DNA of 64,000 bases, from the NCBI RefSeq assembly GCF_000024965.1, contig NC_013530.1, positions 2,418,001-2,482,000 of the forward strand, written 5' to 3'. Of this stretch, positions 40,039 through 41,972 are shown one piece after another (position 1 is the first letter of the stretch; each line of letters opens with the position of its first letter). Both the position numbers and the translations under genes were made by a program. The notes beneath the pieces were generated by a model. The model ran no database searches and had not been told where the DNA came from. It saw only the letters and a program-made list of their open reading frames with translations. Source of the DNA: Xylanimonas cellulosilytica DSM 15894. Its GTDB lineage: Bacteria; Actinomycetota; Actinomycetes; Actinomycetales; Cellulomonadaceae.

Positions 40039-41058
40039 CTACCAGCGCGCGTTGGCCCCACGCGGGCGGGGCTGGCAGCGCGGGCACCAGTGGGCGCTGC
40101 GGTTCATGAACGTGTCCCGCACGATCGGTGTCCCGCAGCGGGGGCACGGCTCACCCGCACGCCCGTACGCGGCCAGGCCACGCGCGAAGTACCCCGACTC
40201 GCCGTTGACGTTGACGTACAGGGTGTCGAAGCTCGTGCCGCCGACGGCGAGGGCCTCGCGCATGACGTCCTCGGCGGCGTCGAGCACCCGGGCGACCTCG
40301 ACCGGCCGCAGCACGTCCGTCGCCCGCGCGTAGTGCACGCGCGCCCGCCACAGCGCCTCGTCGGCGTAGATGTTCCCGATACCGCTGACCAGCGTCTGGT
40401 CGAGCAGTGCGCGCTTGATACCCGTCCGCCGTCGTCGGACCGCGGCGATCACCGCGGCGCGACCGGGCGTGCCGGGGGCGAGCTCGGGATCGAGCAGATC
40501 GCGGGCGATGTGCGCGACGGGCCCGGGGACGGCCGGTTCGTCGGTGCCGAGCCCGCCGGGGGCGCCGTCGGGCGTCGGGACGAGGCCGACGACGGCGAGG
40601 TGCCCGAAGGTGCGCTGGTCGACGAAGTCGAGCGCGGTGGCGCCGGTGGGTGCACCCGTCAGGTGCAGGCGGACGCGCAGGTGGGGATGGGCCCAGGGGT
40701 CGCGGCCGTCGCGGACGAGGAGCTGCCCGGACATGCCCAGGTGCGCGAGGAGTGCGGTCCTCGTGGTGGAGCCGGCGTCGGTGGTTGAGCCTGTCGAAAC
40801 CACCCCTGCGGGATCGAGTGGGGTGGTTTCGACAGGCTCAACCACCGGGGCGGCGGCGAGCGGGAGCCAGAGGAACTTGCCGCGGCGGGCTGCGGCCGTC
40901 AGCGTTGCGCCTTCGATGAGGGACGCGAACGCGGACGGGCCGCCGTCCTGGCGGCGTACCGAGTAGTCGCGCAGCACCTCGACCTCGCGGACGCGCGCGC
41001 CGACCACGTGGCGGGCGAGTCCGTCCCGGACGGTCTCGACCTCGGGGAGCTCAGGCAC
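40039..41058 (-). CDS. mutM: Formamidopyrimidine-DNA glycosylase carrying an in-frame REP-like insert
   Basis: This base-excision repair enzyme removes 8-oxoguanine and cleaves abasic sites. After loss of the initiator residue the N-terminus is PELPEVETV with the catalytic Pro and Glu. Lys61 is in RRGKFLWL and the H2TH region has [25 protein letters not shown] (core [15 protein letters not shown]). The C-terminal zinc finger is CPRCGTP...CPRCQ. At 339 residues it is about 50 longer than usual; residues 71-93 come from a 69-nt palindromic element lying just after Lys61. The start is GTG, overlapping the rnc stop by 8 nt. Confidence 0.95.
40779..40847. repeat. REP-like perfect palindrome inside mutM
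   Basis: 26-bp perfect arms (40779-40804, 40822-40847) with a 17-nt loop. The motif GGTTGAGCCTGTCGAAACC resembles a palindromic repeat I recall as widespread in actinobacterial genomes. It is 69 nt long, read as 23 codons, and its two arms translate as VVEPVETT and VVSTGSTT. Confidence 0.9.
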
Positions 41059-41770
41059 CCGGCTCGGCGGGGATGGCCTGGAGCGCGCGGTACGCCTGCT
41101 CAGCGGCCTCCTGCTCGGCGTGCTTCTTCGCGGTGCCGTGCCCCAGGCCCAGCACCGGGCCGGCCGTCACCTGCGCGTGGAACGCCCGCGCGTGCTCCGG
41201 CCCTTCCGCGTCCACCTCGTAGGTGGGGGCGGGGTAGCCGCGCTCGGCGCAGGCCTCCTGCAGGGACGTCTTCCAGTCGAGGCCCGCGCCCAGGTCGGCG
41301 GCGGCGTCGAGCGTGTCGTCCACCAGGCGGTGCACCAGCTCGCGTGCGGCCTCCAGGCCGTGCGAGATGTAGGTCGCGCCGATGAGCGCCTCGACCGTGT
41401 CCGAGAGGATCGAGTCCTTGTCGAACCCGCGCGTGCGCCGCTCGCCCTTGCCGAGCAGCACGTACGAGCCGAGCTCCAGGCGCCGGGCCACGGCCGCCAG
41501 CGACCGCTGCGACACGGTGGCCGCCCTCATCTTCGCCAGCTCGCCCTCGGAGACATCAGGGTGGCGGCGGAACAGCGCCTCGGTGACCACGACCCCCAGC
41601 ACCGAGTCGCCCAGGAACTCGAGCCGCTCGTTGTGGGGGATGCCCCCGGCCTCGTGCGCGAAGGACCGGTGCGTCAGGGCAAGCACAAGAAGCTCGGGGT
41701 CCAGAGGGACCCCGAGCTTCTCCAGCAAAGCAGTCGGCCCCGGCTTCGAAGAAGTCCCGTTGCCTGTCAC
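41051..41770 (-). CDS. rnc: Ribonuclease III
   Basis: The 239-residue double-strand RNA endonuclease processes rRNA precursors. The catalytic domain has the signature [22 protein letters not shown] (core [13 protein letters not shown]), and D/E sites continue in [12 protein letters not shown]. The C-terminal dsRNA-binding domain is at about 160-230 ([30 protein letters not shown]). The start is GTG at 41770, 7 bp after rpmF, in the DUF177-rpmF-rnc-mutM operon. Confidence 0.96.
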
Positions 41771-41777
41771 AGGCTGA

Positions 41778-41972
41778 TCAGCCCGCGTGCTCGGTGCGCA
41801 GCGCCTCGGCGTACTGACGGCCCTTGTAGGTGCCACAGGTCGGGCACGCGGTGTGGGACAGCTTCTGTCCCTTGCAGTTCGGGCACGTCGTGAGGGCGGT
41901 CGCGGTGGTCTTCCACTGCGAGCGACGCGCACGGGTGTTGCTGCGCGACATCTTGCGCTTCGGAACAGCCAC
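41778..41972 (-). CDS. rpmF: 50S ribosomal protein L32, zinc-ribbon form
   Basis: The 64-residue L32 starts MAVPKRKMSRSNTRARRSQWK and retains both Cys pairs (CPNC, CPTC), so it is the zinc-binding form. The start is GTG at 41972; it follows DUF177 by 2 bp. Confidence 0.97.
   Translation of the reverse strand: MAVPKRKMSRSNTRARRSQWKTTATALTTCPNCKGQKLSHTACPTCGTYKGRQYAEALRTEHAG

Follow-up and report, generated by a model that had tools for sequence, protein, structure and literature searches.

An in-frame REP doublet in mutM of Xylanimonas cellulosilytica and its repeat family

Rickettsia palindromic elements are palindromes that occur in frame in several unrelated genes, where they encode a tolerated peptide, and REPINs were reportedly described by Bertels and Rainey in 2011. 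REPs inside genes have been reported in several species, dimers included and many of them in replication or repair genes, in a 2013 paper whose accessible text also cites the Rickettsia elements and gives loops of 4–5 nt for CGTC REPs and 2–20 nt for GTAG REPs (PMC3733652). The accessible text of a further paper (PMC2817692) places RAYTs in the Y1 transposase family PF01797 and describes some REPs with GTGG heads. Here we analyse a palindrome carried by mutM in a 64,000-nt stretch of the X. cellulosilytica DSM 15894 genome (contig NC_013530.1), referred to below as the window. The original prediction took the in-gene location to be the novel part. As the text of PMC3733652 attests, that location in itself has been known since 2013, and several other proteins of this genome are hit as well. 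What is new, as far as we searched, is an actinobacterial family that lacks the unpaired GTAG/CGTC tag, in a genus without a detected Y1 transposase, together with one-sided half-REPs and recurrent use of particular protein linkers.

The palindrome and its protein setting

The palindrome (40779–40847) is a REP doublet, or REPIN-like unit, of 69 nt. Its two arms (40779–40806 and 40820–40847) are 28 bp each, 100% complementary and separated by a 13-nt loop with a central GATCG (40807–40819); the 26-bp arms and 17 nt described originally amount to the same 69 nt. The first arm is a plus-strand REP, CGGTGGTTGAGCCTGTCGAAACCACCCC, which is identical over 27 nt to the commonest sampled form of the repeat and differs at one flanking base, and the second is an inverted REP on the minus strand that is fully complementary to the first. 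A decayed half-REP lies on the plus strand at 40762–40773, 18 nt outside the first REP (CGTGGTGGAGCC versus GGTGGTTGAGCC, 10 of 12 positions matching). This was the longest perfect inverted repeat in the window for loops of 3–60 nt, and in five first-order Markov control sequences of the same length the longest arms reached only 11–13 bp. The motif TGAGCNTGTCGA, matched exactly, was found in the window at the two mutM arms only. A second perfect inverted repeat lies inside rnc (41688–41721), with 15-bp arms, a 4-nt loop and no REP core.

The host gene, mutM/fpg (40039–41058, minus strand), was identified from the list of open reading frames and from NCBIfam. It encodes 339 residues from a GTG start and overlaps the end of rnc (41051–41932, minus strand) by 8 nt. 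The protein passed both Fpg/MutM profiles, with 272.9 bits for NF002211 (cut-off 212) and 235.3 for TIGR00577 (cut-off 203.3), and it has the N-terminal PE, the Lys after the RRG motif and the C-terminal Cys4 zinc finger of the MutM/Fpg family. Consistent with the prediction that the catalytic and zinc residues are present, M1, P2, E3, K61, C305 and C308 were invariant among 48 aligned sequences, and C325 and C328 were nearly so. We infer that MutM carrying the insert is still functional. The protein had also been described as about 50 residues longer than usual, which holds against several actinobacterial MutMs of 284–296 residues, but the excess is only 30 residues against the 309-residue protein of G002, a relative in the same genus with an empty site.

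From the coordinates, the 69-nt insert corresponds to approximately residues 71–94, and the decayed half-REP extends to about residue 99. On each strand the 69-mer can be translated without a stop in two of its three frames, and in the mutM sense the third frame is interrupted by a stop. The frame that mutM uses is free of stops, as originally read, and encodes VVEPVETT...VVSTGSTT, a polar, Pro/Thr-rich peptide predicted to be unstructured. Searching the PDB with MutM matched 39 distinct sequences, the best MutM among them being 1l1t. In phmmer comparisons with solved MutM structures, the aligned stretches stopped at residue 64 and resumed at residue 100, and in the 1l1t chain four residues (64–67) lie between the two. 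An AlphaFold2 model made from 48 MutMs (mean pLDDT 91.8) places the insert as a coil between strands 62–68 and 101–106, at the low confidence given by 10-residue block means of 50–63. The model suggests that it is likely a β-turn of MutM that tolerates the insert.

A repeat family of doublets, arrays and half-REPs

The genome comprises 3,831,380 bases in two contigs (3,742,776 and 88,604). Searching it with the 69-mer gave at least 197 matches at E ≤ 0.001, both strands counted and 40 of the 246 first-look candidates scored. The 14-mer core TTGAGCCTGTCGAA was present in 453 copies (226 + 227), compared with none for the reversed control, so the motif of the arms is not unique in the genome. 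Across the order, any copy of this core was found in 9 of 149 genomes. Besides the present genome, two carry 13 and 16 copies and six carry one or two; because the control pattern also gives single hits in three of the order's genomes, single copies mean little. The original prediction likened the core motif to a repeat of many actinobacterial genomes; by these counts the exact core is not common but concentrated here. Within the genus, we compared 11 genomes, namely the present one (G000) and ten relatives (G001–G010). A looser core, TGAGCNTGTCGA, gave 530 hits in G000, 164 in G010 and 158 in G008, and 54, 50, 25, 16, 10, 6, 3 and 2 in the remaining genomes, with controls at 0–4 per genome. 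For G008, which is represented by 1.5 Mb (65% complete), 158 hits correspond to a density of the same order as that in G000. Tracing the family over the phylum with this relaxed core was abandoned as too loose, with 352 of 396 genomes matching, mostly at low counts.

To describe the repeat, we used a sample of 62 elements, made up of the first 100 listed core hits (56 clusters, from the first 1.14 Mb) and mutM. The consensus of the 182 units in this sample, CCGGTGGTTGAGCCTGTCGAAACCACC(CC), has a 7-bp stem (GGTGGTT/AACCACC) and a conserved 11-nt loop; the core served as the search key, and its conservation is therefore partly by construction. Five neighbouring stem pairs were intact in 91–99% of the 182 units, and 84 of the units had the commonest form. 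Covariation gave no support to the stem in these units, as the stems hardly vary and pairing was not above the expectation from column make-up. With a palindromic unit in the 20–40-bp range and a high copy number, the repeat is a REP by the usual definition. It does not have the unpaired tag at one end that marks the GTAG/CGTC super-families: the consensus flanks, read by eye, are C-rich and contain neither GTAG nor CGTC. GTGG does occur in the consensus, but paired within the stem, and because some published REPs carry GTGG heads the margin of the tag test is not wide.

Adjacent REPs in the sample (120 pairs) were oriented ++ in 57 cases, +- in 35, -- in 20 and -+ in 8; the predominance of ++ neighbours indicates that tandem arrays exist too. 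The +- pairs peaked at a core spacing of 43 nt (16 of 35 adjacent pairs). In a wider set of 36 listed doublets, partly picked by similarity to the mutM copy and with spacings counted from the list, 25 had this spacing, which corresponds to the 69-nt unit, and 11 contained GATC. As in REPINs, these are inverted doublets with a preferred spacing that make a single hairpin, and the spreading unit is probably the 69-nt inverted doublet.

We also found half-REPs. When sampled 5′ seeds (GGTGGTTGAGC, up to two mismatches) were followed into the unit, 30 of 214 proved to be half-REPs, 23 of which then continued with C, and no halves were found among 135 sampled 3′ seeds (TGTCGAAACCACC, up to two mismatches). 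All except one of the 30 half-REPs are followed by a further GGTGGTT of the same orientation, the most frequent spacing being 18 nt (11 of 30), which is also the spacing of the half-REP in mutM. With a shorter seed, GGTGGTTG, matched exactly in the wider set, 72 of 291 units broke after GAGC or GAGCC, some of these 72 being C-to-T variants of full REPs, and 20 broke earlier. Half-REPs consist of the 5′ stem and about half of the loop, mostly end in GAGC or GAGCC, and are stacked outward from full REPs. Their one-sidedness points to an event halfway along the REP loop.

In-frame copies in other genes and in relatives

Using a codon model trained on the window, we scored all 62 elements for read-through. 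Eleven read through, five had coding flanks that did not join, 20 had one coding flank and 26 had none; in-gene copies are a minority of the elements. The test is strict, since mutM itself was missed and fell among the 20 elements with one coding flank (right flank 0.05, threshold 0.1), so read-through counts may be low. All 11 read-through elements and mutM use the same reading frame, and the second open frame (RWLSLSKPP...) is unused. The 11 are not all independent, as two pairs each lie in one gene.

Pfam was run on ten open reading frames (ORFs), and NCBIfam on nine of these and on MutM, with the LacZ ORF excluded. Ten of the 11 read-through elements fall in eight recognisable proteins. 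HrpA and a RecB-like nuclease-helicase carry two each, and single elements lie in an S9 peptidase, the mycothiol synthase MshD, an MrfA-like helicase, a UvrD_C/PD-(D/E)XK protein and a GH3 glucosidase (all assigned by Pfam/NCBIfam) and in a LacZ-type beta-galactosidase (Pfam). Nine of the 11 elements are flanked by matched domains on either side, and a tenth shares its ORF with one of those nine. Element 128149 has a Pfam domain on one side; TIGR03491 matches its ORF in two stretches, and this ORF runs in frame into that of element 129712. Element 256290 was left out of the ten, as its recognised domains lie on one side only. Five of the nine hosts, including MutM, act on nucleic acids, which echoes the 2013 REP report as far as its accessible text goes (PMC3733652), in a sample that is small and in which large proteins are bigger targets. 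The same peptide was found in unrelated proteins, and the repeat stands in frame in several unrelated genes (11 of 61 elements, plus mutM), as protein-coding palindromic elements do. mutM is not special among them; it is one of several proteins hit in the genome.

Two of the host linkers were compared across the genus. The linker around one of the HrpA elements showed this REP in none of the ten relatives over the stretch compared, which for G009 and G007 started inside the linker, and in G004 it is longer and unrelated. The G004 HrpA linker (L191) contains one unrelated stretch with CGTC...GACG-like ends. The MshD linker has several REPs in G000 and a half-REP/REP series of its own in G010, and the motif was absent from the other nine genomes. 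In G004, the MshD linker (L181) holds a different, CGTC-like palindrome, also in frame, that starts CGTCATTCTGCG, which shows that different palindromes can land in the same linker.

For MutM, we compared the loop between RRGKxLW and HLGM. A match at E ≤ 1e-60 was obtained in eight of the 11 genus genomes, the misses being 93, 65 and 72% complete. The loop is empty in G002 (MutM 89% identical), G006 and G005, and holds about 11 other residues in G001 and G004. Five of the eight loops are therefore short or empty, and the inserted residues are not shared throughout the genus. In G010 the loop contains half-REPs plus one REP, and in G003 a decayed doublet, which scored 24 against the element, a value reached by none of 2,000 codon shuffles and none of 3,972 window pieces; its arms have lost their pairing, with 7 of 26 positions matching. 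None of 80 named MutM loci had the REP core within the loop, a sensible loop having been delimited in 77 of them, some by fixed position, and in four of the 80 this loop is long, at 52, 36, 32 and 32 residues. The longest belongs to Promicromonospora sp. MEB111 (L064, 1501–2679); it is Ala/Pro-rich, sits at the same site and has no REP core.

A tree of MutM alone did not resolve the branching of G000, G002 and G003, and concatenated DNA placed G003 nearer to G000 than G002, with weak support (87.66% versus 84.44%). From these sequences, the insertion may have been common to G000 and G003 and then lost in G002, or insertion may have occurred more than once. If it was shared with G003, the pristine arms in G000 would need a later re-insertion or conversion. 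No target duplication was readable at the MutM site because the loops are too divergent between species.

Origin of the insertion and comparison with known systems

No Y1 transposase (PF01797) was found in the X. cellulosilytica genome at E ≤ 0.001, and none of the 11 genus genomes, four of which are less than 80% complete, had a match at E ≤ 0.1, compared with eight of 14 control genomes. The repeat therefore differs from REPINs in having no associated RAYT gene detected in the genome. SbcD (TIGR00619) likewise had no match in the 11 genus genomes, and across the order 117 of 149 genomes match, 94 of them over the cut-off. Loss of SbcCD was considered as a cause of the repeat and rejected, as SbcD and the repeat are distributed differently across the order: at least four genomes of another genus of the family have no SbcD match and no core copies, and both G126 and G015, with 13 and 16 core copies, have a match. 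This mismatch makes the absence of SbcD at most permissive. The original prediction spoke of a mobile palindromic element tolerated as an insertion; the hundreds of copies and the short or empty sites argue for the insertion, and, with no mobiliser found, it is the copy number and the empty sites that suggest mobility.

We consider it very probable that the mutM palindrome is an in-frame insertion of a dispersed REP doublet that is close to neutral for MutM. The insert would belong to a high-copy REP family that is non-autonomous, and the doublet would have entered the β-turn that links two strands in the N-terminal domain of MutM. Its tolerance could be explained by a length of 69 nt, or 23 codons, with two of three frames open, and by the polar, Pro/Thr-rich and presumably unstructured peptide, with Lys61 not displaced. 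Copies in bad frames or in structured regions would have been purged. Our best guess is that copying proceeds through a single-stranded hairpin handled by some enzyme, a step for which we would put the chances a little below even. A further reading, which we regard as unlikely, is that a RAYT-free palindromic repeat grows through processing of its own hairpin, in a genus where SbcD too went undetected. On this reading, the retention of the 5′ stem by half-REPs and the absence of isolated 3′ halves from the sample would suggest that the REP loop is cut, or the template switched, about halfway along it, whether by an enzyme of the host or by a transposase yet to be described.

The arrangement in doublets, the favoured distance between REPs and the many copies also fit REPINs as the accessible text of PMC3116915 presents them, and the repeat could be a classical RAYT-driven REPIN whose Y1 (HUH) transposase disappeared only recently. 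Given that PF01797 was missed in every genus genome at a threshold that detected it in controls, and that the consensus has no unpaired GTAG head, its GTGG lying inside the paired stem, we find this history possible but rather doubtful. A different kind of explanation is that the palindrome is kept for a role in nucleic acid: its hairpin in the mRNA might adjust mutM expression downstream of rnc, for example, or a nucleoid protein might bind it. REPs elsewhere have been proposed or shown to have such roles, according to the text of PMC3733652, and this part of the mRNA has a folding energy of -75.1 kcal/mol (z -9.07 versus 200 shuffles). However, strong folding is built into any perfect 28-bp palindrome, and the z-score therefore adds nothing independent. 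Moreover, the loops of relatives are short, empty or, in G003, decayed without palindromy, and the element is present in several unrelated genes; a nucleic-acid role is thus improbable. Finally, the inserted residues might simply belong to the working MutM protein of this lineage, with the DNA palindrome incidental, in line with the four long loops at this place among the 80 actinobacterial loci. We give this very little credence, as the DNA belongs to a repeat family with hundreds of core hits in the genome, relatives lack the insert and the same peptide occurs in unrelated proteins. In-frame insertion of a REP doublet remains our preferred account.

This actinobacterium, with its complete genome, provides protein-coding REP insertions in which one family enters several proteins in one frame, and the same linkers are used in sister species, once by a different palindrome. 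Together these copies form a natural series in which to study how protein segments arise from short palindromes, and a system for finding what copies REPs where no RAYT is detected. In the literature that we searched, which left most subscription journals outside, no paper was recognisable from its title as describing the repeat by its arm sequence, in long or shorter forms, and none on actinobacterial REPs or protein-coding palindromes was recognisable as describing it.

Among described systems, Rickettsia palindromic elements resemble the Xylanimonas family in behaviour, as the original prediction proposed: both lie in frame in unrelated genes and encode a tolerated peptide. The hosts differ, and the likeness is one of behaviour. 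With REPINs, in the accessible text of PMC3116915, the family shares an inverted REP pair at a preferred distance that forms a repeated hairpin unit with a variable spacer; there, REPINs are described as extragenic and RAYT-linked, whereas the Xylanimonas family is partly intragenic and no RAYT was detected. The intragenic GTAG/CGTC REPs of Di Nocera, De Gregorio and Rocco (2013; PMC3733652) are likewise short palindromes, often inverted dimers and some of them in frame, and CGTC REPs have no dedicated transposase according to the available text, just as none was detected for the Xylanimonas family. The main text of that paper does not mention 'actino', Streptomyces or Mycobacteri. In comparison with these REPs, the Xylanimonas family shows no unpaired tag, has a 7-bp stem with an 11-nt loop, includes one-sided half-REPs and lives in an actinobacterial host.
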